A DNA stretch of 55,269 bases from the NCBI RefSeq assembly GCF_000332315.1, contig NZ_KB235933.1:112130-167398 (forward strand). Reading direction: 5' to 3'. A program made the translations under genes and the position numbers. The DNA is from Prochlorothrix hollandica PCC 9006 = CALU 1027 (GTDB lineage: Bacteria > Cyanobacteriota > Cyanobacteriia > Prochlorotrichales > Prochlorotrichaceae). Below the pieces are notes generated by a model. That model was not told the origin of the DNA, made no database searches, and was given only the letters and a program-made list of their open reading frames with translations. Shown one piece after another: positions 22,149-38,714 of this stretch; positions within the stretch are counted from its first letter, which is position 1, and every line of letters starts with the position of its first letter.

Positions 22149-22907
22149 CTGGCGTGGGGGCAGGCTGACCGTAAATTTTTAAGATTAGCCCTCTCAGATC
22201 CCCTCGGATCAATTTTTTACTCTGGCTTTTACTATGGGTTCAGGCTCCCTGCACCGCTCTGGGGTCATGATCAAAGGTGGTTGCTGTAGGTTGGATATTG
22301 GCAACTCGTGGCTTTTGCAAACTCGTGATGGTAAGAAACCCTTATGTCCCAGCCCCTTAACCCAACCGTGTCTGCTTTTTCCCAAGCCCTGGAACGATCG
22401 CCGCAACACCTGGAACGGCTGCGATCGTTCACCTCGCCCCTGGAGGTGGTGACTCTGGCCCAGGACATGGGGTTTGAGCTATCCCCTGGGGATACCAAAG
22501 ATCTGTTCCAGCAGGCTTACCTTCAGTGGTGGAGTCGCATTGATCCCCAGTTTCAGCCCCTGTTTGACACCCTGCGCACTGATCCGGCCCTTAATCACCG
22601 CCACCGAGACTGTAAAACCCCCGCCGATGTGCTGGCTTTGGCGGCGGAGCTGGGTTACCCCATGACCCTGGCGGAGTTGCAAACCCTGGCGGCGGTGGCC
22701 CTGGCTCAGCCCGGTTTCAGTTGCGAAAAACTGTGGTTTCAGTCCCTGGGGCTGGGGACTGTCTAGCGAGTGTTGTCTGGTGTAGCCCAGATCCCCGTTC
22801 TGGGGCTGGGTTCTCAACGGGTCTGCGGTGTTCTATCAGAAACCGGGGGTCTCGCAGATCCTCATAAGAACAATGGAAGCACGGAGAGCCGGTATATAAG
22901 ATTCTGT
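22149..22907. repeat. Long direct repeat, copy 1 (carries a Nif11 gene)
   Basis: About 759 bp, nearly identical to 30906-31660 in the same orientation apart from a divergent stretch of some 110 bases before the gene. It starts ctgg(c/t)gtgggggcaggctgacc and ends gagccggtatataagatt(c/t)tgt. Together the copies bracket 8 kb of accessory genes. Confidence 0.9.
22344..22766 (+). CDS. Protein with two Nif11 domains, copy 1
   Basis: 140 residues. Two Nif11-type helical units are visible: SAFSQALERSPQHLERLRSF, SPLEVVTLAQDMGFELSPGD (about 10-50) and DPALNHRHRDCKTPADVLAL, AAELGYPMTLAELQTLAAV (about 82-122). Nif11 domains occur in nitrogen-fixation linked proteins and as leader regions of natural-product precursors. 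No GG-type cleavage site or core peptide is seen and no modification enzyme is near, so a leader-peptide role is not supported. A second copy at 31097 differs at a handful of residues. Function unknown. Confidence 0.75.
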   Translation: MSQPLNPTVSAFSQALERSPQHLERLRSFTSPLEVVTLAQDMGFELSPGDTKDLFQQAYLQWWSRIDPQFQPLFDTLRTDPALNHRHRDCKTPADVLALAAELGYPMTLAELQTLAAVALAQPGFSCEKLWFQSLGLGTV

Positions 22908-22987
22908 CCTTGGGTCTCCGGCTCTACACCTTGCGATCGCCGACCTTTTCTCCCCCAACCTCAAATCTGCCAACGCTCAATCTTAAA

Positions 22988-23049: not shown

Positions 23050-24204
23050 ATGTTAAAAACCCTCTCGATCGAGAACTTCCGATGCTTCAAACGCTTTGAA
23101 CTCAACCCCCTCGGTCGCATTAATCTCCTGGTTGGAGCCAATAACAGCGGCAAAAGTTCAATTTTAGAAGCAATTTACCTTTTGCTGAACCCGAATCCCC
23201 TTAACGGACTGTATGAGGTTTGCATCGGACGTAATGAGTATAGTATTGAAGAAGATTCCCGAAAGCTAGATCAGCGCCCCACAAGGCAGTTGCACATTGC
23301 CCACCTCCTGTATAATCACGACCTTTCCCTAGGCACCTCCCTCAAGATTGCCACTTCTCTCACCGATGGGACACAACCTCAACTCACTCTTACAGTCCTA
23401 AATCAGGATAATCTCCAGGAATCCTTTGATCTCGACGGTTTTGAGCCACTCAGCGAGACCTTAAAACTAGAAATCAACAGTTTAGCGTATCTTGCGAAGC
23501 CTCTAGATCTTAGGCTCTCTGCACAGGGGATGCTTTCCCTTGAAGACTTACGCCGCTTTCCGAGACAAGTGACAAGGGATCAAGTGACAAGGGATCAAGA
23601 GTTACACCAACAATCCAAGGCAATTCAGGTCCAGCTTATGCGCACCCTGGGGCTTTCGATCGGGGAAACAACGGATCTGTTTGACAAAATCAGTTTAACC
23701 CCGGAAGAAGATCTTGTTACCAAGACCTTACAGACCATTGAGCCGAGGTTACAACGGATTGCTTCTGAAGGCAGTACCAGACGTTACCCTAGTGACTCCT
23801 TTGTTAGAGGGGGTTTGAAGGTCAGACTGGAAGGGCAAGATCAGCCCATTCCGATCGGGAGTATGGGGGAGGGGATGTGGCGGATGTTGGGTTTGGCCCT
23901 GGCGATCGTCAATGCTAAAGACGGCGTGCTTTTAGTCGATGAGATTGATACCGGCCTGCATTTCACCGCCATGGGCGAAATGTGGCGCATGATCTGCCAA
24001 ACAGCCCAGGATTTGAATGTCCAGGTTTTTGCAACCACCCACAGCCGTGATTGCTGGCAAAGTCTCGCTGAGGTCGTCCAAGAGGGTGGCCTTGAAGCAG
24101 AACAAGTCTTTGTGCATCGGATTCACCCCGATCGAGAAGCCAGTGTTCCCTTTGATGGCGAAGAACTCGCGATCGCCACTGAACAAGATCTGGAGGTGCG
24201 ATAG
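23050..24204 (+). CDS. AAA ATPase of the OLD/AAA15-21 (ABC-ATPase-like) type
   Basis: 384 residues. N-terminal strand MLKTLSIENFRCFKRFEL and Walker A GANNSGKSS (about 30-38), ABC-like signature region IGSMGEGMWRMLGLALAI, Walker B GVLLVDEIDTGLHF (about 295-308) and the switch TTHSRDCW. This is the class of stand-alone SMC-like ATPases paired with TOPRIM nucleases in OLD, Gabija-like and PARIS-like defence systems. The next gene, 5 bp downstream, is TOPRIM-like, so the two form an operon. A 15-bp in-frame duplication (VTRDQVTRDQ) lies in the middle. The defence role is inferred from context. Confidence 0.8.
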   Translation: MLKTLSIENFRCFKRFELNPLGRINLLVGANNSGKSSILEAIYLLLNPNPLNGLYEVCIGRNEYSIEEDSRKLDQRPTRQLHIAHLLYNHDLSLGTSLKIATSLTDGTQPQLTLTVLNQDNLQESFDLDGFEPLSETLKLEINSLAYLAKPLDLRLSAQGMLSLEDLRRFPRQVTRDQVTRDQELHQQSKAIQVQLMRTLGLSIGETTDLFDKISLTPEEDLVTKTLQTIEPRLQRIASEGSTRRYPSDSFVRGGLKVRLEGQDQPIPIGSMGEGMWRMLGLALAIVNAKDGVLLVDEIDTGLHFTAMGEMWRMICQTAQDLNVQVFATTHSRDCWQSLAEVVQEGGLEAEQVFVHRIHPDREASVPFDGEELAIATEQDLEVR

Positions 24205-24209
24205 GGACT

Positions 24210-24692
24210 ATGGCTAACCTAACCGGAAATCGCCCTAATCAGAATCGGCTAATTGTTGAGGGAGTAACTGAACAGCGCGTTATTCCTGAGCTAATGGAGA
24301 AAAACGGCGTTCTATGGTCCCAAAAGCAGCCCCCTGTTGATATCAAGGTTTCAGGGGGATATGAGGAAATTACAGCCAAGGTAATCTCTGCGAACCTCAA
24401 AACTGAAGGTCTTAAAGCCCTAGGTCTTATCATTGATGCAGATGAAAATCCCCAGGAGCGTTGGCAGAGCATTCGGAATCGGGCCTTAACAAGCATTGAT
24501 GACTTGCCAGAGGACTTGCCGGAAACGGGGCTGATTCACGAGACACAGCGGGGAATTCGGTTTGGGGTGTGGATATGGCAAAATCCCCCCGGTCGCCAGT
24601 TGCACCAAGCCCTGAAAGAAAAGATTTTCCAGCCCAGTCACCCCCACGCCCAGCGCTTTGTGCAGTGGTTTCAGGATCTCTATCGCTTTTAG
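24210..24692 (+). CDS. DUF3226 TOPRIM-like protein, internally shortened
   Basis: 160 residues. LIVEGVTEQRVIPEL carries the first TOPRIM glutamate and LGLIIDADENPQERW the DxD-type metal motif; FGVWIWQN follows. Complete DUF3226 proteins are longer (roughly 210-240 residues) and have about 50 residues between FGVWIMPDN and the C-terminal PGRxLxxAI region; here these are joined directly (WIWQNPPGRQLHQALKEKIF), so an in-frame internal deletion is likely. Catalytic motifs are kept. It is probably the partner nuclease or regulator of the preceding ATPase. Confidence 0.72.
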   Translation: MANLTGNRPNQNRLIVEGVTEQRVIPELMEKNGVLWSQKQPPVDIKVSGGYEEITAKVISANLKTEGLKALGLIIDADENPQERWQSIRNRALTSIDDLPEDLPETGLIHETQRGIRFGVWIWQNPPGRQLHQALKEKIFQPSHPHAQRFVQWFQDLYRF

Positions 24693-24785: not shown

Positions 24786-24917
24786 TAATTTATTGCCACA
24801 CAAACCTTTTGCCAGTAATCTAGCGAGTGTTGTCTGGTGTGGCCCAGATCCCCGTTCTGGGACAGGGTTCTCAACGGGTCTGCGGTGTTCCATCAGAAAC
24901 CGGAGATTTCGCAGATC
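24786..24917. repeat. Long repeat, short copy 2 without the Nif11 unit
   Basis: Its left part (tttattgccacacaaacctt, gccagtaatct) matches the left flank of the third copy at 30833-30906 and its right part (agcgagtgttgtctggtgtg onward) matches the DNA following the Nif11 stop codon in both long copies. The ~610-bp Nif11 segment is absent and the junction is tct at 24819-24821. The remaining gap 24693-25057 holds no gene. Confidence 0.8.
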
Positions 24918-24921
24918 CCCG

Positions 24922-25057: not shown

Positions 25058-25363
25058 TTAGTAAACAACGCCATGATTCTTCTCGGCGCAACCTTGGCAG
25101 ATGACATGATTATGCATCCAACCACGGGGGTTTCGCTGCCCACACTCCTGACAAATTTGAAAATATTGCTTGTTATCTAGAATTTTCTGGATTTTGACAT
25201 CCACTTCCTGAGATGAGGATATTTGCGGGAGCACAGAGGCTACTGTCCAGCTAGATACAGGTTCATGGGGATGTGGCCAAGATATGCCACGAACAAGAAT
25301 ATGAAGTCCATCATTTTCTTGTTTGAGTTGTATGAATTCAGAGATGATTTCTTTATCGTTCAT
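25058..25363 (-). CDS. Small protein with C-terminal zinc-ribbon-like motif
   Basis: 101 residues. The C-terminus has CQECGQRNPRGWMHNHVICQ then GCAEKNHGVVY, i.e. two CxxC pairs about 17 residues apart, a zinc-ribbon pattern found in several uncharacterised cyanobacterial proteins. The N-terminus is acidic and helical (MNDKEIISEFIQLKQENDGL). A run of eight 10-bp repeats ends 17 bp before its start codon, on the promoter side. Zinc ribbons of this size often bind nucleic acid or protein; no more specific role can be supported. Confidence 0.7.
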   Translation of the reverse strand: MNDKEIISEFIQLKQENDGLHILVRGISWPHPHEPVSSWTVASVLPQISSSQEVDVKIQKILDNKQYFQICQECGQRNPRGWMHNHVICQGCAEKNHGVVY

Positions 25364-25380
25364 AATTTAGACTGCATCAT

Positions 25381-25460
25381 TAATGTTCAGAAATGTTCAG
25401 AAATGTTCAGAAATGTTCAGAAATGTTCAGAAATGTTCAGAAATGTTCAGAAATGTTCAG
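25381..25460. repeat. Eight tandem 10-bp repeats upstream of the zinc-ribbon gene
   Basis: Eight units of aaatgttcag (first one taatgttcag) with no other change. The period is close to one helical turn, so every unit faces the same side of the DNA. On the minus strand the unit is ctgaacattt. Confidence 0.95.
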
Positions 25461-25664
25461 ATCAAACTCATCAAACACCTTTAGCCAGTGCCTTGGAAAT
25501 CTCAGAACTCCAGTATGCTAGCTTATTTTTGTAGGTAGGAGATTGATTCAGCAGCTTTTTCTAAGCCCTATTGGCAGCGCTACCAGGGTGGGGACAATTC
25601 AAGTGCTGAATATTGAGGTCTATTTTCTTAACGCTATTAACTGACTCCTTCCCCCAGGTTACTA

Positions 25665-26018: not shown

Positions 26019-27485
26019 TTACTTGTATCTTCTCAACTGCTCTTCTCGCTTCTTTATCCCCTCTTGGGAAGGGCGAGGCATTCCCTGGGATCGACTATAA
26101 GGATGATAGTTTTCAGAATCTTGTCGAAACTTGGTGATTCCGTCATTAGGAAAAATTTTATGTATAGCTAACCACCGCTCACAAAAGTTTTGCCACAGCA
26201 ACATGTGGTCATGTCTCCAAGAGACAACTGAACCCATCTGCTTTAAGGAGAGATTTGGCTTTTCCATTAGCATCTTGCCCACTTTATCTCGAAATAGATA
26301 CATATCCTTGGTTCCTCGTAGCGGTTCTGCAATAATATAATTACCAAAATCAAAGAAGCAGAACTCCGTTTCTTCTTCTGCGGGAACACTCGATACATCT
26401 AGCTTTTCAATGTAATTCATATCATGGTTAGCTTGTTCTAAAATCTGATAAGAACTGGGAGGGACTAAAATCTTAACTGCTTCAAAGCGATCGCTATAGT
26501 TAGACCAAAAATAGCGCCGCATATCAATTCGATTACGTTCTTTATTTTCAGAACCTTCTGTTTCTTGAAAAATGGGAGAATATTTCAGTAAGGTGTCTAC
26601 TAACTCAGAGAATAGGGTATAGTTAGCAGCACCGATTAAAGCATTGAGTCTGATTTTAGCTTGATCGCCAAGGAGATTATATAGCTCGGGCTGCTGCCAA
26701 CGGAGTTGAATAAATAGTTCTATAAGCTGGGGACAAGTAGATGAAAAATTAGTTGGAGCCGCTTCAAGAATTGTAGTTATCCCGATCGCAAGCTCTGCCT
26801 TAGAAACTGCGGGATCATTCAAACATGAAGTCATCCATTTCTCGTCACTACTCTGATAGCTTTTATGTTCTATCTTGTGATTAAAATAAATCGCAGCCTG
26901 TTCGATAAAGTGTAGATTTAGCAGGTTGGTATCCTGCCAAGAGAGGGATAATCTTTTGGATAGCTGAGCAATATAGTCACCTTTATTGAGGCGGTACTGT
27001 GCAGCAACAGGCCCAAGAGCAGAGACCGGGTGCTGTGTAGTTTGATCTACTGCTTTACCCAAGGTCTGGTAGACAGCATAGACTAAGTTAACAAAATCTT
27101 TTTGATTCCCCAGCCAAGCTTGATTATAAATTGTATCTACTGTATCTAAAATTGAAGGTGCAAGGCAAAGTTGCTCTCTGCTTTGGCACTGATCGAGCAA
27201 ACGACGCAGTAAAAAAATGCAAAGCCAGGAATCTTGGCCAATTTGTCGCCAAATTAAAGTTGCAGAGTGCCGTTGCTGATCGGGAGACTGCTGTTGATCC
27301 CATTCTGCCTTAGCTTTAAGACAGCAATACCATTCCAACGGAGTGATATTGGTATGCCCTTGGGTCAGTTTTTCGAGAACTTGATCGACCGAAGGGATTT
27401 GCTGAAATTGGCTCTGCTGTTGTTGAGCGAGGGCAATGAGTTGTTGGGGGCGCTGGGGCGAAAGGGGAGGAAGGGAAAGAATCAT
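26019..27485 (-). CDS. zorC: Zorya protein ZorC (EH_Signature domain)
   Basis: 488 residues, third cistron after zorA and zorB; its start overlaps the zorB stop by 4 bp (ATGA), which points to coupled translation. The N-terminal two thirds are helical and Gln/Leu-rich; the C-terminal part has the pattern of the EH_Signature domain, including MRRYFWSNYSDRFEAVKIL and SWRHDHMLLWQNFCERWLAI, the region that gives the domain its Glu/His name. In E. coli type I Zorya, ZorC is a cytoplasmic DNA-binding effector that works with the ZorD helicase-nuclease when the membrane motor ZorAB senses phage infection. No ZorD gene follows; the next gene downstream is an unrelated small protein. Confidence 0.78.
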   Translation of the reverse strand: MILSLPPLSPQRPQQLIALAQQQQSQFQQIPSVDQVLEKLTQGHTNITPLEWYCCLKAKAEWDQQQSPDQQRHSATLIWRQIGQDSWLCIFLLRRLLDQCQSREQLCLAPSILDTVDTIYNQAWLGNQKDFVNLVYAVYQTLGKAVDQTTQHPVSALGPVAAQYRLNKGDYIAQLSKRLSLSWQDTNLLNLHFIEQAAIYFNHKIEHKSYQSSDEKWMTSCLNDPAVSKAELAIGITTILEAAPTNFSSTCPQLIELFIQLRWQQPELYNLLGDQAKIRLNALIGAANYTLFSELVDTLLKYSPIFQETEGSENKERNRIDMRRYFWSNYSDRFEAVKILVPPSSYQILEQANHDMNYIEKLDVSSVPAEEETEFCFFDFGNYIIAEPLRGTKDMYLFRDKVGKMLMEKPNLSLKQMGSVVSWRHDHMLLWQNFCERWLAIHKIFPNDGITKFRQDSENYHPYSRSQGMPRPSQEGIKKREEQLRRYK

Positions 27486-28228
27486 GGGGTTGTTGGAGCA
27501 GGGACAGGGGGGGTGGCTGATTGGGTGAAGTCGGCTAGGGTTGGGGGACGGACTTGGAATTGGAAAGTGACCCGTCGATCGCTAGCAATAATGGTTTGTT
27601 GGTTCGCATCAATTTCGCCGCGACCAGCCACCAGAATTCGTTGGCGCAGTTGGGCCTTGGTTGGAAAGTTGGGAAAGGTTGGATCATTGAAAATATATTG
27701 ATAAACCGAAGAAGCGCGGCTGAGGCTGACATCCATATTGTCCTGGTCGGGACCAGAGGAACTTGTGGAACCTTCGAGGGAAATGGCTGTAATTTGGCCA
27801 GCAATCTCTGGCGGTAGGCTAAAGATGATGTTGCTATAGACCGGGATAAACTGACGCAAAAAAGCTTGGCCCGCAGGTTTGAGGGTGGTGACATTTTCAT
27901 CAAAGAGAATTTTATCAGCAATAATGAGATCGCCAGTCTCTGGATCAACTTCAAATCCTCCCGTGCCCAATTCTGCCTCCAGTTGAGTGCGCAGCAGCAG
28001 GGGCAACTCCCGAAAGGCTTTTTCATACTGCTCCACCTGTTGCTTGAGTTGTTCTGCCTCTTTCAGAAGCCGCTTTTGCTCTTGAATTGCGACTTGGTAC
28101 TGAATAAAAACAATGCTAAAGAGTAGGGCAAAAATCATCAGCAATCCTGACATCAAATCACCGACACTTAAGAAGATAGAATTATCTTCTTCGGTTTGGG
28201 GTTCGCTGGGGTCAAAATCAAGCTGCAT
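27482..28228 (-). CDS. zorB: Zorya protein ZorB (MotB/OmpA-like)
   Basis: 248 residues. One membrane helix (about 22-43) in SVGDLMSGLLMIFALLF carries Asp24, the place of the proton-handling aspartate of MotB-type stators. A coiled coil follows (about 46-80), then an OmpA-like peptidoglycan-binding domain with KILFDENVTTLKPAG, LEGSTSSSG and GRGE...SDRRVTFQF. Its start overlaps the zorA stop by one base (TAATG). ZorB anchors the ZorA5B2 motor to the wall. Confidence 0.88.
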   Translation of the reverse strand: MQLDFDPSEPQTEEDNSIFLSVGDLMSGLLMIFALLFSIVFIQYQVAIQEQKRLLKEAEQLKQQVEQYEKAFRELPLLLRTQLEAELGTGGFEVDPETGDLIIADKILFDENVTTLKPAGQAFLRQFIPVYSNIIFSLPPEIAGQITAISLEGSTSSSGPDQDNMDVSLSRASSVYQYIFNDPTFPNFPTKAQLRQRILVAGRGEIDANQQTIIASDRRVTFQFQVRPPTLADFTQSATPPVPAPTTP

Positions 28229-30249
28229 TAGTTCTCCTGGTTCCCGTCTGTAGTCTGAGTGGGCATTTCACTCAGTAGGTCTGCGATCAGCTTGGCGGTC
28301 TCTAGGAGCTTGCCAGAAACCTGAGCCATAGCTGTATCCGCATCATTAAAGAACTGCTTTCGTTCTTGGGCGAGACTTTCCACGTATTGATTTAGCTCCT
28401 GGGTCCAATCAGCCCGCATTTTCTGATTTTGCCTAGCGATGGTTTGAAGTTCCCGATCGGATTCTGCCAGCCGATCGGCCAAGGTTTGGAGGAGGTCGAG
28501 CTTGTCTTGGGTATAAAGGGTCTCTGAAGTGGCAACTAACTTGTTGACATCCTTGATGGTTTTGGCGATCAGTTTGATCCGATCGTCTAGACCTTGATTC
28601 AGTTCGCTGCGCCGCCCATACTCTTGCTGAAATACGAGATTGAGATTCTCGACCACTGCTGCTAAGCTATTGCGCTGCTGTCCGAGGGTGCCTTCAAGAA
28701 GGTTATTTTGCTGGGTAAAAAAGTCTTGGAGATTGTCTTGGTAAGCGAGTCTAAAAGCTTCCAGTTGCTTTTGGGTGGCTTCACTCATGTCTTGCAAGCG
28801 CTGATCAATGCTCCCAAGACTGGTGATCAGTTCGATCCGTGCAGTTGCCATTAAACTGGAGGCTTCTTGGCCGATCTCAGCTAATGTATCCGACTGCTTT
28901 TGGAATGTTATCTCTGCTTGCTGAAGGATGTCGATCGTGCCGCTGCGAATTTCCTTAGCTGTTTCTTGGAGTACCTCTTTGGTGTTGGTTTGAAACTCAG
29001 TGAGGGTAATTTCTAGGTGTTGCGTAAAGCGTTGAAGCTGCTCTAGGGTTCTGTTTTGAAAGGTTTCGATCGTTTCTACGGTGTTGGTGAGGGTGGCGAT
29101 TGATCGGGCAAGGCGATCGGCCAGATCCGCCAGTTCAATATGCAAGCGCTCAACAGCTTGAGAAGCCCGCTCAGTCATGTCGGCGCTAGTATCTAGGCGG
29201 GTGGCAACGGGTTCAATGAGTTCCGTTCGCATATTGCCAATCAGATCACGCAGCACAGTTTGCTGATCGGCATTGAGTCCCTCTAGCCGTGTCTGACTTT
29301 CCTCAATCTGTACAAAAACAGGCCGCAAATGGGTCGCTAGCAAATCCTCAAAGACAATCCCGATTTGCCCGCCCACCGCTTGACCAATTTTCTCAGCATT
29401 AAACTGGGTCTCTAGCTGTTGGGAAAACCTAGCTAATATCCGAGCGGCTTTTTGCATATCCTGGGCAGCATTTTGCATGGGATCGAGGTTGATAGTTTCA
29501 CCAATGCGTTGGGGCAGACCCTCAACAATGCTGTAGAGTTCTTGACTCGATCTGTAGAGTTCTTGACTCGATTGGGTGGGTGGTTTTAAGGCGGCAACTT
29601 TCCCTAATCGATCGCGTAAGTCATAGCAATAGCGTCTTCGCTGATAGTTGGAGGCCGTAATGACTAAGGAAAAGAGTAAGCTGCACGACAGTCCCATGAG
29701 GGAGGTGGAGAAGGCTGTTCCCATGCCATCTAAAAGGTTTAGGGTACTGTCTAAAGATGCTTCAACATTACTGGAGTTAATCTCAACCCCTTGAATCCCT
29801 GTTGTAATACCCCAAAATGTTCCGAGAATACCGAGGGCGGTTAAAATTGTAGGTATAACGGTTAAGTTGCTACGGGAAATGGTGGCGAGTTCTATGGGGT
29901 AGGACAGTAGGATTGGAAGGCTAGAACTACCCACTGATAGTTGATAGATATATCGCCGGTTTTTCTCAGTCTCTGCTATTTTCTCAATCCCTTCTATATG
30001 TTGTCGCACCCAACTGTAGTGTTGTTCGTCCTGGGATTCGGGTTGAGGTTTAGAAATTTGCTGTTTTCCGCCCTGTAAGGCATCTGTGAGATATGCAATG
30101 CTGAGATCGAGGCGTTTAAGCTTACCCCAATTTCTCCAGAAAGAATAAAACTCCGCGCCACATCCGACGAGGAAAAAGACAACAATAAAGCTAATGAGGG
30201 GCAAGTTGGGGGAAATAATCTTTTCAAACCAGATCCCGATTTCATTCAT
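28228..30249 (-). CDS. zorA: Zorya protein ZorA (MotA/TolQ/ExbB-like with long tail)
   Basis: 673 residues. Membrane helices at about 14-31, 129-153 (TVIPTILTALGILGTFWGIT) and 173-200 (MGTAFSTSLMGLSCSLLFSL) give the MotA/TolQ core; from residue 215 to the end is an almost unbroken coiled coil, as expected for the long intracellular ZorA tail that carries the infection signal. A 21-bp in-frame duplication gives SSQELYRSSQELYS at about 227-240, where the tail leaves the membrane part. First of the three zor genes; another gene ends 42 bp upstream. Confidence 0.88.
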   Translation of the reverse strand: MNEIGIWFEKIISPNLPLISFIVVFFLVGCGAEFYSFWRNWGKLKRLDLSIAYLTDALQGGKQQISKPQPESQDEQHYSWVRQHIEGIEKIAETEKNRRYIYQLSVGSSSLPILLSYPIELATISRSNLTVIPTILTALGILGTFWGITTGIQGVEINSSNVEASLDSTLNLLDGMGTAFSTSLMGLSCSLLFSLVITASNYQRRRYCYDLRDRLGKVAALKPPTQSSQELYRSSQELYSIVEGLPQRIGETINLDPMQNAAQDMQKAARILARFSQQLETQFNAEKIGQAVGGQIGIVFEDLLATHLRPVFVQIEESQTRLEGLNADQQTVLRDLIGNMRTELIEPVATRLDTSADMTERASQAVERLHIELADLADRLARSIATLTNTVETIETFQNRTLEQLQRFTQHLEITLTEFQTNTKEVLQETAKEIRSGTIDILQQAEITFQKQSDTLAEIGQEASSLMATARIELITSLGSIDQRLQDMSEATQKQLEAFRLAYQDNLQDFFTQQNNLLEGTLGQQRNSLAAVVENLNLVFQQEYGRRSELNQGLDDRIKLIAKTIKDVNKLVATSETLYTQDKLDLLQTLADRLAESDRELQTIARQNQKMRADWTQELNQYVESLAQERKQFFNDADTAMAQVSGKLLETAKLIADLLSEMPTQTTDGNQEN

Positions 30250-30893: not shown

Positions 30894-30905
30894 CTGCCAG
30901 TAATC

Positions 30906-31660
30906 TGGTGTGGGGGCAGGCTGACCATAAATTTTTAAGATTAGCCGTCTCAGATCCCCTCGCATCAACCCTTTGACCTGGATCCAGGCTCCCTGAACGG
31001 CCCTGGGTGGCGATGTTGGGTGACCCGTGATGTTGGGTGACCCGTGATGTTGGGTGACCCGTAATTTTTACACACTCGTGATGGTGAGAACCCCCTATGT
31101 CCCCCACCCTGAACCCAACCGTGTCTGCTTTTTCCCAAGCCCTGGAACGATCGCCGCAACACCTGGAACGGCTGCGATCGTTCACCTCGCCCCTGGAGGT
31201 GGTGACTCTGGCCCAGGACATGGGGTTTGAGCTATCCCCTGGGGACACCAAAGATCTGTTCCAGCAGGCTTACCTTCAGTGGTGGAGTCGCATTGATCCC
31301 CAGTTTCAGCCCCTGTTTGACACCCTGCGCACTGATCCGGCCCTTAATCACCGCCACCGAGACTGTAAAACCCCCGCCGATGTGCTGGCTTTGGCGGCGG
31401 AGCTGGGTTACCCCATGACCCTGGCGGAGTTGCAAACCCTGGCGGCGGTGGCCCTGGCCCAGCCCGGTTTCAGTTGCGAAAAACTGTGGTTTCAGTCCCT
31501 GGGGCTGGGGGCTGTCTAGCGGGTGTTGTCTGGTGTGGCCCAGATCCCCGTTCTGGGGCAGGGTTCTCAACGGGTCTGCGGTGTTCCATCAGAAACCGGG
31601 GGTCTCGCAGATCCTCACAAGAATAATGGAACCACGGAGAGCCGGTATATAAGATTTTGT
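30906..31660. repeat. Long direct repeat, copy 3 (carries a Nif11 gene)
   Basis: Same orientation as copy 1 at 22149-22907 and nearly identical through the Nif11 gene and its 3' flank. In this copy, 31013-31066 holds three 17-bp units of gatgttgggtgacccgt in the stretch that differs from copy 1. Confidence 0.9.
31097..31519 (+). CDS. Protein with two Nif11 domains, copy 2
   Basis: 140 residues. It differs from the copy at 22344 only near the start (MSPTLNP for MSQPLNP) and at the penultimate residue (AV for TV), so the duplication is recent or kept uniform by gene conversion. The upstream 110 bases differ between copies, so their promoters are probably different. Function unknown. Confidence 0.75.
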   Translation: MSPTLNPTVSAFSQALERSPQHLERLRSFTSPLEVVTLAQDMGFELSPGDTKDLFQQAYLQWWSRIDPQFQPLFDTLRTDPALNHRHRDCKTPADVLALAAELGYPMTLAELQTLAAVALAQPGFSCEKLWFQSLGLGAV

Positions 31661-31661
31661 A

Positions 31662-31706
31662 GTTGGTGCGTTACGCTACGCTAACGTACCACTACCAGAT
31701 CTACTT
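31662..31706. repeat. Left flanking repeat of the helicase gene
   Basis: gttggtgcgttacgctacgc, taacgtaccactaccagatc, tactt. A copy in direct orientation lies right after the helicase gene at about 37039-37082. The core is a dispersed palindromic repeat (ggtgcgtta...taacgcacc) that I recognise as widespread in cyanobacteria. Confidence 0.85.
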
Positions 31707-31723
31707 TTCTCAAGGGGTGAAGG

Positions 31724-34700
31724 ATGACGATCGAGGCTGGCAACACAATGGTCCCGCAATCTGTGGAAGCTCTACCTTCGGGGTGGCTGGTGTTGGATTT
31801 GGAGGTGTGGAAGGACCGATCGGGGATTCGATTGGCGGCTTACCTGTGGGAACGGGGGGAGCATCGGCTGGAGCCGCCCCAGGGGGAAAGCAATTTGACG
31901 GGGGCGCAGGTGCGGGAGTTGGTCGATCGGGTGCGGGGGGCGACGGTGGTGATGGGCCACAATATCCGGGCGTTTGATGTGCCGATTTTGTTTGGGCTGG
32001 CGAAGGAGGAGGCTCCGGCGGGGTTGGCCGATCGGATCTGCGATACCTTGGAGCTTTCCAGCCTGTTCCGAGTCGGCCAGCCCACCCATCGCCTCGAAAA
32101 GCTGTACAAACTGAGCCAGTCCAATAATGATCCCCTTGAGGACTGCTGGGAAAGCTATGAGTTATACCAGGATATCAAGGTCAAGCTCTTAGAAAGTCCA
32201 GACAATGTTCCTGCGGAGGTCAGGACTTGGCTGTATCGCCTGCTACCTGATGAATGCTTCATCGTCCAACAACAGTTCTTTGCACCCTTGGAGCAGGAAC
32301 ACATTCCCTACGCTTGGGAAGGACTGAACGTTGACGCTCTACAGTCCTATCTAGAGACCCTCGCCGATCGGAAAGGTCAAGGGAATTTTGGAGCTTTGGT
32401 TTTCCTGGCATGGCTTTCTACCTATGGCTCAGATCAAGATCATCGACCGGGTTGGACAGACCATACGTTTAGTACTTTTCAAGAAGCTGCAAAAATCGCT
32501 TGGAGTTTCTCTGAGAAAGGAACTTTGCTAAGAGAATTAGAGTTTTTCTTCGGCTTTAAGCAGTTTAAGGCCGGTCAACAGGAGATTGCAGAGGCATTGC
32601 TCCAGAATGATGTTGTCCCTTTAGGTGTTTTACCAACCGGAGCGGGTAAAAGTCTCTGTTTTCAGCTTCCTGCCTTAATTTTCTCAAAAATATGGGGAGG
32701 CTTGACCGTTGTCGTCTCGCCTCTTCAAGCGCTGATGGCGGATCAGGTTTCTGGACTCCGACAAAAGCTAGAAGAGCAGAAGCGTAACGAATATGTGGAT
32801 CGGGTTGATTTGTTGGTTGCCAATCAAGAACCAGACGAACAGAAAAAAATCTTAGAACGGCTTAACAATGGCCAGATTGACTTGATCTATCTTTCACCAG
32901 AACGCTTGCGTCACCCACTAGTGCGGGAAATTCTGATAAAACGTCGCCCACATCTTTGGGTTTTGGACGAAGCTCATACGCTTTCTCAGTGGGGACATGA
33001 CTTTAGACCCGATTTCCTCAGAATTACAACCGGGATCAAAGATATGTACCGTCAGGTCCATCCCCAGGGGACACGATGGGGATTTGTGACGGCAACCGCT
33101 ACGGTGAAAGTTGTTTCAGATATCCAAAAAAAGGTTAAGGAACATCTAGAGGGTGTTGTAGCCAATGAGTTCAGTCGGTTACCTCGGCATGGACGACTGT
33201 TCTCATGGCGGGAGGAGATCCAGACTGCGATCGAGTCGCAACCGTACTGTTCTCCCTCCCAGTTAGCAGATTCCGATCGCCTCAAGCGGTCTGCTGAGTT
33301 GATCGATCAGCACTTTGCAGCCCTAAAGTCTCTAGACGACTCGACACTGCCACCCGTCGCTATTATTTACGTTCCTACACGGAAGGCAGCAGAAAAATGT
33401 GCCAAAGCGTTGTCGGAGATACAGTTTCAGCTTGGTACTCGTTCTGGTGAAAGGTTTAAGGCAGAACCTTACCATGGTGGAAGAAAGAGTGCAGATAAGA
33501 AAGCGACGATTACAGCGTTTCAGAAAGCTGAGTTAGATGTGGTGGTTGCAACCAATGCGTTTGGGATGGGGATCGATCGGTCCAACATTCATCTGGTCAT
33601 TCACCTAGCACCTCCCCAAACCCCAGAGGCTTATATTCAGGAGATTGGTCGTCTAGCCCGTAAGGAAGGTGAGGAAGGCTTTGCCTATCTCTTTATGGAG
33701 CGTGACGGAGAACGTGATTTTGACTGGATTTTCAAGCAAGATACACGCGGTCGTATTAGTCCCCATGGTCTGAAAAAATGCTGGGAGGTCATTAGAAATA
33801 AGAGTAATGATAAGAACAGTTGTCTTACGGCTGATGGCAAGGAATTTTGGGTTAGTAGTTTAGATTTTCAAGAGTATTTACCCAACCACGATGCAGACGT
33901 GCTGGAAACACAAACCCGTGTTGCCCTCTTCTATCTGGAGCAGGCAGGATTGATTAAGGAGAAGGAATCTGTCCCTTGTTCACTAGAGATCACTTTGCTC
34001 GTTGATCTAGATCAGGCAACCGATCTAATTCAGGATCTCAACGGCCAAGCAATATTGGCATATTTCAAAGCAGGGGGCTTTAGTCGGCAAGGAAGTCAAT
34101 GTACAGTTGATATTCGTGAGCTTGCCCTGATTTCTGAACTTGGACCCAAAAAAGCTCTATCTACTATTCGTTCCTTGGTCGATCATGGAATTCTGGAGTG
34201 GGCTTACCGCGTATCATTTAGATTTAATGGCAATACTAAAAAAGCAATTAAGTCTAAATTTGATAAATTCACAGAAGCTCGGAAGATCATTGAGCAATGG
34301 GACTCTCAACCAATTCCATTGAGTCATGACAATGATTTTCGGGTTAATTTGGCTGGTAATGAGAAGTCTCAGCAAATCAAGGCTTGCTTGCAGCTTCTCT
34401 CTCTATTGAAGCTTGCCCATCATCACCCCGACGAACAATCTGGTGAGATAGTTGAGCCTCTTCTGGAAGGAGGTCGTTACACAGACTGGCTACAACAGGC
34501 TGTTCATAAGGTGGGAACCTTACTTGATGAGATCGAGGAAGCCCAGAATCTCATCCTGGACTTTTATCAGCAAGAGTCTACTTCATTAAAGGAAAGTACG
34601 CTTTTAAATTTGGCAAAACTGAGTACGAAGGTTAGTTTTGCACTTGTGGAAACGCTAGAGATCATGCAGTGTTTGGGTTTAGTCTCTTTGGGAAATGGCG

Positions 34701-37027
34701 CATCTCAATACTCGACGCTTCACCATATTCAGCGAACCAGCAAAAAATGGTCTGATCGGATCTACCAACCCCTAGAAGAGCACTATAATCAGCGGCGGCG
34801 GCGCATTTATGCGCTTCAGCGGATTTTGAGTATGGCTGAGGCCAAGCTAACGGCGCATGAGGTTTATCATGATATTTGCTATCGCATGATGCATTCCGGG
34901 GATGTGGATGAGGATGAGGCGATGCAGCTTCGGGAAGCTTACCAAGAGTTTCTGAAAGCGGAGGGTGATGATCAGAAAGAGTGGGAAGATTTGATTCTGA
35001 AGGAATATGGTGCCCAGTATCTTGGCAACTTGGAGTTGCAACGGGTGCGGGCTTTCCGCAATTACTTTCTGTGGAGTTTGGAGGAGTTCGATCGGCACTA
35101 CTTACAGGATGTTAACCTGAGTGAACCTCCTTCTGTAAATCGTCTGATCCAGGAGCTAAATCCGGAGCAATTGGAGGTTGTTACGGATGATAAAAGCCGC
35201 GCTATTTTGGTGCTGGCTGGTCCAGGGGTTGGCAAAACCCGTGTGATTGTCTATCGGATCTTCTATTTAGTGCGTTCTCGTGGTGTTGCACCTGAGAAAA
35301 TTCTAGCCATTGCTTACAGTGGCAGTGCTGTAGGTGAGTTAAGAAAGCGTCTGTATGACTTGCTAGGCTCACAGGCTAATAGTCTTAATATTATGACTTT
35401 CCACGGCCTAGCTCGTCATCTAACTGGACTTAAGGAAAGTGATGCCCCTAATCATGTCTCCAAAGATAAGAAATATGACTGGCTACTAGAACAGCTACAA
35501 TTTTTCTTAAAAAATGATCATCCTGGCTATCAATATATTCTGATCGATGAATTTCAAGATATTACAGAGAAACAGTACAAGATTGTACAGTCGCTAGCCC
35601 AGCTTGATGTCATTGATGAGGAAGCGGAGCAAAAAAGCTTTCTGGTTGCCGTTGGCGATGATGATCAAAATCTTTATGAATTTAATGGTGCAAACATTGA
35701 ATTTATCCAGAGTTTCGAGCGTTACTTTAAGATGGAGGATCAGAACAGTCAAGCTAAAAAGATCTTTCTGCTCAAAAACTATCGTTCTGATAGAGTTATT
35801 GTAGAATTTGCCAACAAGTTTATTGAAACTTGTATTGCTTCTGAGAACCGTCTGAAGAGCCAGAACACGGCTATTTATCCTCACTCCAGTGAGAATGGTC
35901 AAATTGTCTGGGGACTATATGATCATATTTATCAAGCGTCTTTCTATATTGCAGAACGTATTAAAGGTCTACAGAAGCATCAAGCAGATCTTGCAGAGAT
36001 AGCTGTTTTAGCTCATAAATGGGATGACCTTCGCTGTGTACAGCACCTTTTAAGAAAGTATGATATCCCTTATCAGCTTTATAACAGTCATGATACCTAT
36101 CAACCTTCAAATAGTCTGATTGGTCAGAGACTGCTAGAAAGATTAGCTAGTCAGATCGCCCAATCAGATTATGATGCAGACACAAAAGTCTGTCCTAAAA
36201 TCTATATAGAGTCATGGCGCACTCAACAAGGCTATAGCGATCGTGATCCGGCTTGGGCTGCTTTCCTCAATACCATCGAAGATTCTGACGTAATGAGCCT
36301 AGAAGACTTATATTATGTATTGCGACAAACTCGTCCCGTAAAAGCAAGTTGTGTTGTGCTGTCTACTTTCCATAGTGCGAAAGGATCTGAGTTCAATGAT
36401 GTATTCATCTTGGATACAGGAAAGCTTTTCAGCAATGATACACCGGAAAGTTATGCACGCTTACTTTATGTTGGTTTTACCCGTGCCAAACAACGTCTTA
36501 ATATCCTAATCAAACAAGATGTAGTCTTAAATAAGATGAGTCCATCCTATCAAGCATCTCAAATCTTATCCTTAATGTCCTCTGATATCAAAATTTTTGA
36601 TATTTCCACTCGTCTTATGCAAGCTCAAGATGAGATTCCTGCAACCATTCACTACGAGTTTGTCTTAAATCCTCGGGAAGGTATGTTATTTTTAACTCGC
36701 CCAGATGTTTTCCAAGAATCAGGTCAACGTGTTATTGATCGGTGTGCAAGAGAGTGGAAAAGCTTAGGATACCGTCATGGTACCAAAATCAAGATTCACT
36801 TGCGTGAGAATCCCCGCTATGTTGTTTGTGTTTTGTCAGAAAAAGGAACTCGTATATTCAATACCTTAATCAATGGGGCCACCTCTGTAAATATTTCTCC
36901 TCAGACCATTGTGCGTATCGAACGTGATGAGAACTTTGTGAAAGGAAATCAAGCTTATCCTGGAGATCATCATTTTATTGTAGTACCTAAGCTCTTGATC
37001 TCTTACCCTTCACACTTACTCAGTTGA
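31724..37027 (+). CDS. Fusion of DnaQ-like exonuclease, RecQ helicase and UvrD/Rep helicase
   Basis: 1767 residues, start ATG 31724 after aaggggtgaagg. Domains: DnaQ-like exonuclease (about 20-150) with LVLDLEV (Asp25, Glu27), GHNIRAFD (Asp85) and DPLEDC (Asp140); RecQ-type helicase (about 275-680) with Walker A PTGAGKS (304-310), DEAH (415-418), TATAT, ATNAFGMGIDRSN and QEIGRLARK; a middle winged-helix-like region; and a UvrD/Rep superfamily 1 helicase (about 1140-1610) with NPEQ, AGPGVGKTR, IDEFQD, GDDDQNLYEFNGA, NYRS, TFHSAKGSEF and YVGFTRAKQRL. Such proteins unwind DNA; the fusion suggests a single machine for processing DNA ends. It begins about 1.5 kb from the Zorya operon, on the opposite strand. 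After the first 400 bp the gene is AT-rich. Confidence 0.9.
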   Translation: MTIEAGNTMVPQSVEALPSGWLVLDLEVWKDRSGIRLAAYLWERGEHRLEPPQGESNLTGAQVRELVDRVRGATVVMGHNIRAFDVPILFGLAKEEAPAGLADRICDTLELSSLFRVGQPTHRLEKLYKLSQSNNDPLEDCWESYELYQDIKVKLLESPDNVPAEVRTWLYRLLPDECFIVQQQFFAPLEQEHIPYAWEGLNVDALQSYLETLADRKGQGNFGALVFLAWLSTYGSDQDHRPGWTDHTFSTFQEAAKIAWSFSEKGTLLRELEFFFGFKQFKAGQQEIAEALLQNDVVPLGVLPTGAGKSLCFQLPALIFSKIWGGLTVVVSPLQALMADQVSGLRQKLEEQKRNEYVDRVDLLVANQEPDEQKKILERLNNGQIDLIYLSPERLRHPLVREILIKRRPHLWVLDEAHTLSQWGHDFRPDFLRITTGIKDMYRQVHPQGTRWGFVTATATVKVVSDIQKKVKEHLEGVVANEFSRLPRHGRLFSWREEIQTAIESQPYCSPSQLADSDRLKRSAELIDQHFAALKSLDDSTLPPVAIIYVPTRKAAEKCAKALSEIQFQLGTRSGERFKAEPYHGGRKSADKKATITAFQKAELDVVVATNAFGMGIDRSNIHLVIHLAPPQTPEAYIQEIGRLARKEGEEGFAYLFMERDGERDFDWIFKQDTRGRISPHGLKKCWEVIRNKSNDKNSCLTADGKEFWVSSLDFQEYLPNHDADVLETQTRVALFYLEQAGLIKEKESVPCSLEITLLVDLDQATDLIQDLNGQAILAYFKAGGFSRQGSQCTVDIRELALISELGPKKALSTIRSLVDHGILEWAYRVSFRFNGNTKKAIKSKFDKFTEARKIIEQWDSQPIPLSHDNDFRVNLAGNEKSQQIKACLQLLSLLKLAHHHPDEQSGEIVEPLLEGGRYTDWLQQAVHKVGTLLDEIEEAQNLILDFYQQESTSLKESTLLNLAKLSTKVSFALVETLEIMQCLGLVSLGNGASQYSTLHHIQRTSKKWSDRIYQPLEEHYNQRRRRIYALQRILSMAEAKLTAHEVYHDICYRMMHSGDVDEDEAMQLREAYQEFLKAEGDDQKEWEDLILKEYGAQYLGNLELQRVRAFRNYFLWSLEEFDRHYLQDVNLSEPPSVNRLIQELNPEQLEVVTDDKSRAILVLAGPGVGKTRVIVYRIFYLVRSRGVAPEKILAIAYSGSAVGELRKRLYDLLGSQANSLNIMTFHGLARHLTGLKESDAPNHVSKDKKYDWLLEQLQFFLKNDHPGYQYILIDEFQDITEKQYKIVQSLAQLDVIDEEAEQKSFLVAVGDDDQNLYEFNGANIEFIQSFERYFKMEDQNSQAKKIFLLKNYRSDRVIVEFANKFIETCIASENRLKSQNTAIYPHSSENGQIVWGLYDHIYQASFYIAERIKGLQKHQADLAEIAVLAHKWDDLRCVQHLLRKYDIPYQLYNSHDTYQPSNSLIGQRLLERLASQIAQSDYDADTKVCPKIYIESWRTQQGYSDRDPAWAAFLNTIEDSDVMSLEDLYYVLRQTRPVKASCVVLSTFHSAKGSEFNDVFILDTGKLFSNDTPESYARLLYVGFTRAKQRLNILIKQDVVLNKMSPSYQASQILSLMSSDIKIFDISTRLMQAQDEIPATIHYEFVLNPREGMLFLTRPDVFQESGQRVIDRCAREWKSLGYRHGTKIKIHLRENPRYVVCVLSEKGTRIFNTLINGATSVNISPQTIVRIERDENFVKGNQAYPGDHHFIVVPKLLISYPSHLLS

Positions 37028-37038
37028 GCATTAAATCA

Positions 37039-37082
37039 GTTGGTGCGTTACGCTACGCTAACGCACCCTACCAGATCTACTT
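37039..37082. repeat. Right flanking repeat of the helicase gene
   Basis: Direct copy of the element at 31662-31706 (gttggtgcgttacgctacgc, taacgcaccctaccagatct, actt), 12 bp after the helicase stop codon. Confidence 0.85.
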
Positions 37083-37751: not shown

Positions 37752-38714
37752 TTAGTAAAGGTAATCATGGGGAGCCTGGTAGGGCACTGCCACAACTGTT
37801 GAGCCTTGCGCATCCCTCCAAATCTCTAGTGGCACATCTATTCCATTATCCATTTGAAGTTGTTTTGCTATAATTCGTTCCTTAACTAAGGTAGCATCAA
37901 ATCCATGACTCGAAACAGCATAACTCCCTGCCAAGTTACCTGAAAGTATTAGAGATAGCTGACTAACATAGCCATCTGGAAACTGCACAGCAAAACAAGT
38001 TGCGAGATCTTGAGTTGCAGGATTTACTGTCAAAAGGAGCAAACGTCTCACGGCTGAACCTTTATGTCGCTTAACATGATAGACATAAGAGTCTGGCGAG
38101 TTAATCCATTCTAGATTTAGTGCTTTAAGATCAGCAGCATCGAGTTCTTGAAGGCTAGCAATACTACCACTTACCATTGCTCCTGCAATTGCTCCATATA
38201 GAAAATCAGATATCTGCAATCCGTCTCCCAATCCTAAAGCAGTTGCAGCAATACCAACCCCAAGTCTCCATGCGTTTGCTTCTTTCTTTTTCTGGAGTTG
38301 ATATTCTTGCATAATCGTCTGAATAATATACTCCTCATTAACAGTTCTATAATAAACCTGAGAAGTTAAAATCTTACCATTTGATGAAAGAACTGGAGGA
38401 GTATTATATACGGTAGGTTGCATGAGGTATTGAATTGCCATGTTGGTAGTCTGTCTGATTTCAAACTCAGGATGGCATTGTGGATTATTTGTCTGAGCAT
38501 AAGAGTTGGATTGGTCTTGATAATCTGAAAGAGATAAGTCTAGCACTTCAAAACCATAAGCTTTTACTTTCAAAAGAGCTAACTCTTGCACTTTATAAAA
38601 ACTTATGTGAAAAGTTGATGATAGATAGCGCAAAATTGTGTTAGAAGGCATACCCTTGCATTGATACACAATCTCGTCTAAATCTTGAATAAGCTGACGC
38701 GGAATAGGACTCAT
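37752..38714 (-). CDS. Unknown protein with a glycine-zipper hairpin, first gene of the operon
   Basis: 320 residues, no family recognised. The N-terminal 45 residues look like a small helical domain (LIQDLDEIVYQCKGMPSNTI...FHISFYKVQELALL). In the middle, after a basic stretch (LQKKKEANAWR), are two Gly/Ala-rich hydrophobic segments, GVGIAATALGLGDGL and YGAIAGAMVSGSIASL (about 152-192), like the glycine zippers of pore-forming or membrane-inserting proteins. The C-terminal 120 residues look like a beta-rich domain (RRLLLLTVNPATQDLATCFA, PLEIWRDAQGSTVVAVPY). With the two small downstream genes it forms an AT-rich unit bracketed by dispersed repeats. Confidence 0.6.
   Translation of the reverse strand: MSPIPRQLIQDLDEIVYQCKGMPSNTILRYLSSTFHISFYKVQELALLKVKAYGFEVLDLSLSDYQDQSNSYAQTNNPQCHPEFEIRQTTNMAIQYLMQPTVYNTPPVLSSNGKILTSQVYYRTVNEEYIIQTIMQEYQLQKKKEANAWRLGVGIAATALGLGDGLQISDFLYGAIAGAMVSGSIASLQELDAADLKALNLEWINSPDSYVYHVKRHKGSAVRRLLLLTVNPATQDLATCFAVQFPDGYVSQLSLILSGNLAGSYAVSSHGFDATLVKERIIAKQLQMDNGIDVPLEIWRDAQGSTVVAVPYQAPHDYLY

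Follow-up and report, generated by a model that had tools for sequence, protein, structure and literature searches.

The window analyzed here, a stretch of 55,269 nucleotides from Prochlorothrix hollandica PCC 9006 = CALU 1027, contains a gene whose single product joins an exonuclease domain to two unlike helicase motors. This exonuclease–RecQ–UvrD fusion, which we have named "ERU," belongs to a family that is spread over at least four phyla and is carried by plasmids, prophage-like contigs, and chromosomes. We tentatively favor the view that ERU is a free-standing, horizontally moving helicase–nuclease whose probable target is foreign DNA, either incoming or replicating, and whose role is probably anti-MGE defense. 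A type I Zorya operon lies close by, but it is very unlikely that ERU is a dedicated Zorya subunit. The window appears simply to have collected both.

Domain architecture and active sites

The ERU gene is an intact open reading frame that starts with ATG and has no internal stop. A Shine–Dalgarno-like AAGGGG is located 6 nt upstream of the start codon. The features of the gene are listed below, with the basis for each assignment in parentheses.

31712 to 31723, + strand: AAGGGGTGAAGG, Shine–Dalgarno-like, before the ERU ATG (sequence)
31724 to 37027, + strand: ERU, exonuclease–RecQ–UvrD fusion gene, 1767 aa (ORF reading, Pfam, NCBIfam)
31781 to 32203, + strand: DEDD-fold exonuclease domain, aa 20–160, with D25, E27, D85, and D140, and N135 at the DEDDh His position (family profile, predicted fold, alignment)
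32537 to 33703, + strand: RecQ-type SF2 helicase core, aa 272–660, with Walker A K309, DEAH 415–418, and R643/R646 (Pfam, NCBIfam, alignment)
33704 to 35143, + strand: family-specific linker, aa 661–1140, with mixed helices and winged-helix-like parts in a low-confidence model (profile, predicted model)
35144 to 36523, + strand: UvrD/PcrA-type SF1A helicase, aa 1141–1600, with K1171, DEFQD 1275–1279, NYRS 1352, and YVGFTR 1582 (Pfam, NCBIfam, motifs)
36524 to 37024, + strand: C-terminal tail, aa 1601–1767, conserved in the close clade only (comparison of relatives)

A preliminary description of this DNA had proposed that one chain of 1767 residues carries a DEDD exonuclease, an SF2 RecQ helicase, and an SF1 UvrD helicase. 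Domain searches and the predicted fold confirm this composition and place the exonuclease at the N terminus, followed by the RecQ-type helicase, a linker of ∼480 aa, and the UvrD-type helicase. Pfam matches DEAD (284–466) and Helicase_C (544–647) in the first motor, and UvrD_N (PF00580, from 1145) and UvrD_C (PF13361, to 1595) in the second, where motifs I–VI of UvrD/PcrA/Rep SF1A helicases are present. The NCBIfam recQ, pcrA, and uvrD models match both helicase parts, each below its own cut-off. For the RecQ-type sequence, which has the SF2 core motifs, the scores are 237 bits with TIGR01389 and 200 bits with TIGR00614, likewise below the curated cut-offs. No clear match to the linker was obtained by profile or fold search; when compared with the RQC winged helix/zinc module, it gives weak winged-helix matches in a low-confidence model. 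The gene had also been described as AT-rich, which agrees with a steady drop in GC content from 54% in the exonuclease region to 39% at the C terminus, compared with 54% for the window. Third-position GC falls from 61% to 33% over the same interval.

Pfam did not detect the exonuclease domain in the single ERU sequence. However, a profile built from 17 relatives matches solved DEDD exonucleases (9mrc at 1e-4, DinG at 0.02). The predicted model of the domain has a mean pLDDT of 70, with a core of about 85–95, and a fold search with this model returned DEDD-fold exonuclease domains in all of its top rows, which assigns the domain to the RNase H-like exonuclease fold. VIA Z values are 12.4 for E. 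coli ExoI, 12.2 for S. aureus DinG, and 11.4 for DnaQ, and T7 polymerase also reaches about 11–12.

Alignment of 32 full-length relatives reveals that the metal-binding acids D25, E27, D85, and D140 are invariant (32/32), as are Asp107 and Lys126. Where DEDDh enzymes have their catalytic His, five residues ahead of the final Asp, 28 relatives have Asn, four have Ser, and none has His. An hmm alignment to a TREX1-like exonuclease sets the same ERU residue, Asn135 in the window, opposite the TREX1-like His. No Tyr is present at the DEDDy place in these relatives. Because the four acids are kept and the His is replaced by Asn or Ser, the domain is best classed by its sequence as DEDD type, neither DEDDh nor DEDDy. 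The label "DnaQ-like" given earlier thus holds for the fold and the acids, but the DnaQ-type (DEDDh) histidine is absent. Every helicase motif examined is intact. The 32 relatives show no change at the two Walker A lysines, the two Walker B acids, or the motif IV/VI arginines that we checked (with one alignment gap, at R1587). Since the four acids and both Walker lysines never vary, all three active sites appear to be under selection.

Other proteins combine such domains. DinG of Staphylococcus aureus and Bacillus subtilis is likewise an SF2 helicase with a DEDD exonuclease at its N terminus, and this exonuclease is one of the best matches by both fold and profile. However, DinG has one XPD-like motor, whereas ERU has a RecQ and a UvrD motor and lacks the DEDDh histidine. 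In the vertebrate RecQ protein WRN, a DEDD exonuclease precedes the RecQ helicase in one chain, as in ERU. WRN is a eukaryotic DEDDy protein without an SF1 helicase, and the likeness is architectural only.

The altered nuclease site admits a second interpretation, which we regard as possible but doubtful: The exonuclease domain might be a noncatalytic clamp or sensor for 3′ ends, making ERU purely a dual-motor translocase. The absence of the general-base His from every relative, with no Tyr in compensation at the DEDDy place, is what such a domain would display. In contrast, four invariant metal ligands would be unusual for a dead nuclease, and the invariant Asp107 and Lys126 could help catalysis. 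A clamp or sensor would fit either defense or repair, and the question of nuclease activity therefore cuts across both readings.

Distribution and genomic neighborhoods of the family

The same domain order occurs in clade A (cyanobacteria and Deinococcus), in clade B (cyanobacterial plasmids), in Burkholderiales, on other proteobacterial plasmids, and in Bacteroidia. Presence is sporadic, with ERU detected in 14 of 399 Burkholderiales genomes (split copies counted) and 24 of 395 Bacteroidia genomes, and clade A ERU in one of 386 cyanobacterial genomes. The Ramlibacter ERU protein matches 17 plasmid records at a coverage of at least 80%, and further plasmid copies were found besides these. Contigs in IMG/VR also carry ERU. 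A phage collection gave ordinary RecQ matches only and no match of ERU length, and we rejected ERU as a gene of sequenced phages. On a plasmid of Nostoc ATCC 53789 (L142, 8954–15699), the ERU gene is split by an IS1634-family transposase gene, and a viperin-family antiviral gene is located ∼4 kb downstream.

In a tree of RecQ domains, ERU clades A, B, and C are split from 13 ordinary RecQ proteins by a 100/99 branch. Because the ERU sequences form this single clade, the fusion is taken to be old, and by this tree ERU appears to be one fusion rather than a chance joint. Separate fusions in each phylum are ruled out for the RecQ part.

Each component domain is known, and databases already contain the fusion, whose members NCBI names "RecQ family ATP-dependent DNA helicase" or "UvrD-helicase domain-containing protein." A search of the open literature found no paper on a RecQ–UvrD or exonuclease–RecQ fusion. 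PADLOC (2023) yielded no full-length match to one model, and only partial matches to DpdF, PsyrT, and GajB. The RecQ-like defense helicase PsyrT/RqlH (199 bits) shares the RecQ core, but the match covers this region only; PsyrT lacks the exonuclease and UvrD parts and works with an antitoxin. DpdF of the dpd (7-deazaguanine) system (260 bits) also shares the RecQ core, but the alignment is confined to aa 268–659 and no dpd genes are present beside the window ERU. Gabija GajB has a UvrD-like SF1 motor in a defense setting and its models match aa 1259–1495, but its partner nuclease GajA is a separate chain and it has no RecQ part. A UvrD-like SF1 motor is also shared with the defense helicase ArmD of ARMADA (PMC12458937).

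Known defense systems recur near ERU, which favors a role in defense. Besides type I Zorya, these include DISARM (in Scytonema and on a Deinococcus AJ005 plasmid), SIR2-HerA, OLD, and PDC-S36 (in Variovorax), type I-D CRISPR (in Thiothrix), and type I restriction–modification (R-M; in Allochromatium). The ERU flanks of Bacteroidia yield matches to 129 PADLOC models, with type I and III R-M and HEC-06 among them, and comparably sized control stretches yield matches to 33; these counts are of redundant models rather than proteins or loci and include one separate RecQ-like gene, and the excess is only suggestive of a defense setting. As read by eye, phage-like genes neighbor ERU on prophage-like contigs (L015, L017), and Mu-like genes adjoin a truncated copy (L040).

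Other settings also fit DNA maintenance and count against a defense role. Many Burkholderiales copies reside among ordinary chromosomal genes (G458, G609, G400, G690, G653, G501). In three Nostoc loci (L024, L025, L027), ERU has replisome-like genes (beta clamp, DnaX, HolA) on one side and a PRTRC-like cassette on the other, as judged by eye, and this arrangement is conserved at roughly 70–99% identity. Across plasmids, prophage-like elements, and defense islands, ERU has no fixed partner gene.

These neighborhoods give some weight to an alternative that we nevertheless consider rather unlikely, namely that ERU serves plasmids and accessory replicons in DNA repair or replication restart. Its motors would remodel forks and its exonuclease would edit 3′ ends, in the manner of WRN or of DinG with its exonuclease, and it would have no antiviral role. 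The three Nostoc loci and the ordinary neighbors of many chromosomal copies suit such a factor, and RecQ, UvrD, and DEDD exonucleases each belong to a family with a role in repair. However, ERU has a patchy presence, in 3%–6% of genomes, and the window genome already has an ordinary RecQ and PcrA. The recurrence of defense and prophage neighbors also argues against a purely maintenance function. On the basis of this distribution, we lean toward an anti-invader role over the maintenance of plasmid or phage DNA.

Zorya genes and the layout of the window

The Zorya genes of the window and the repeats that flank ERU are as follows.

26019 to 30249, − strand: zorC (26019–27485), zorB (27482–28228), and zorA (28228–30249), without zorD, judged a module separate from ERU (PADLOC)
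31661 to 31690, unstranded: upstream copy of a dispersed 30–46 bp repeat flanking ERU (repeat comparison)
37038 to 37067, unstranded: downstream copy of this repeat, 11 bp past the ERU stop, 97% identical (repeat comparison)

PADLOC scores the window ZorA, ZorB, and ZorC as type I at 717, 234, and 248 bits. A search of the host genome for ZorD gave matches to the SNF2 helicase core only and no full-length ZorD. The zorA and ERU starts are 1475 bp apart on opposite strands, in accord with the distance of about 1.5 kb in the preliminary description. That description had further proposed that a combined nuclease–helicase is the missing activity of the Zorya set, that functional pairing of the two is a testable idea, and that homologs be surveyed for enrichment next to zorABC or other defense genes; homologs mostly in nondefense settings without a Zorya link would speak against pairing.

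Proximity does recur. The ERU gene of Ramlibacter paludis (L041) begins 51 bp after a full zorABCD set on the same strand, an operon-like arrangement. In the Burkholderiales genome G530, ERU and zorA are divergent, with starts ∼4.3 kb apart. Among the 399 Burkholderiales genomes, 20 have ZorC and two have both ZorC and ERU (0.7 expected, P = 0.15), one of the two being the seed. In both genomes the genes are close together, for which random placement gives a probability of about 0.8% each.

Such pairing is not general. The Burkholderiales co-occurrence is not significant, and about 50 of the ∼53 ERU loci with readable flanks have no type I Zorya nearby, the exceptions being the window, R. paludis, and G530. 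These loci comprise six from clade A, five from clade B, nine from a contig scan for the Burkholderiales type, 10 from the order sample, nine plasmid records, four viral contigs, and 10 from Bacteroidia. Most homologs thus have no link to Zorya, which largely speaks against the pairing that had been proposed.

Similar ZorA proteins are present in 25 of the 386 cyanobacterial genomes, with ERU in the window genome only. We fetched 20 other cyanobacterial zor loci (L110–L129), which often lie among ordinary chromosomal neighbors. ZorB was detected at 19 of these and ZorC at 15, mostly in full length, whereas neither ZorD nor ERU was found at any. The ZorD query is distant and also failed to detect the DpdE/DrmD-like SNF2 helicase that follows zorC in Nostoc HK-01 (L130); the absence of ZorD from cyanobacterial loci also rests on the lack of a large ORF beside zorC in the others. 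Because the 20 loci contain neither ZorD nor ERU, ZorABC without ZorD is the usual cyanobacterial form and not a gap filled by ERU. We therefore rejected ERU as a ZorD replacement as a rule, and the proposal of a missing activity fails also because Ramlibacter already has a full ZorD. Type I ZorD is an SNF2 helicase with an Mrr nuclease, and the Pfam domains of ERU differ. Although both are nuclease–helicase fusions near ZorABC in a few loci, their common ground is the generic SF2 core only.

The layout of the window points the same way. A 762-bp direct repeat (22149–22913 and 30905–31666, 90% identical), each copy of which holds a nearly identical 140-aa ORF with a Nif11 domain, brackets a PDC-M38 pair and ZorABC. 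ERU is just outside the duplication-bounded segment, and the two modules look separately acquired. Other defense systems flank ERU too. Recruitment of ERU by ZorABC, instead of or besides ZorD, is very improbable.

Several other arrangements were observed. On the Nostoc HK-01 plasmid (L130, 16254–22973), the genes after ZorABC encode the DpdE/DrmD-like helicase and a large enzyme that putatively modifies DNA; the two may form an alternative effector set resembling ZorD. In the window, the PDC-M38A/B candidate defense pair (23050–24692, + strand; AAA_15 ATPase and DUF3226) adjoins the Zorya genes, and a 100-bp piece of the 762-bp repeat recurs between PDC-M38AB and ZorABC (24819–24918). A tandem array of the 10-bp unit GAAATGTTCA is located downstream of zorC (25357–25466). 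Just downstream of ERU is an AT-rich 320-aa ORF (37752–38714, − strand) without a Pfam or PADLOC match.

A possible mechanism and its significance

RecQ and UvrD family helicases both translocate 3′ to 5′. If ERU acts on invading DNA, then it would load on a 3′ single-stranded tail, a gap, or a fork, and its two motors would open the duplex in turn or on two arms. The exposed 3′ end would be passed to the DEDD domain, which could trim it slowly, with Asn replacing the usual general-base His, or merely grip it. In either case the invading DNA would be destroyed or stalled. No self/nonself rule is visible in the ERU sequence, and the exonuclease may be inactive without its His, which would weaken the defense interpretation. 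The most specific form of the proposal, a one-gene anti-invader system in which two 3′-to-5′ motors serve a DEDD nuclease with an invariant Asn/Ser in place of His, is possible but held with considerable reserve. If true, ERU would be a self-contained analog of the multisubunit RecBCD, AddAB, and Gabija.

What becomes of invading DNA is decided by helicase–nuclease machines, most of which have several subunits. ERU combines two unlike motors in a single chain that is labeled merely as a RecQ helicase, and it is tractable for biochemistry and phage challenge. Its position in the window is also a caution against inferring functional pairing from one defense-island neighbor. The altered yet invariant nuclease site of this widespread family raises the question of whether an enzyme of the DEDD type that lacks the histidine can still function.
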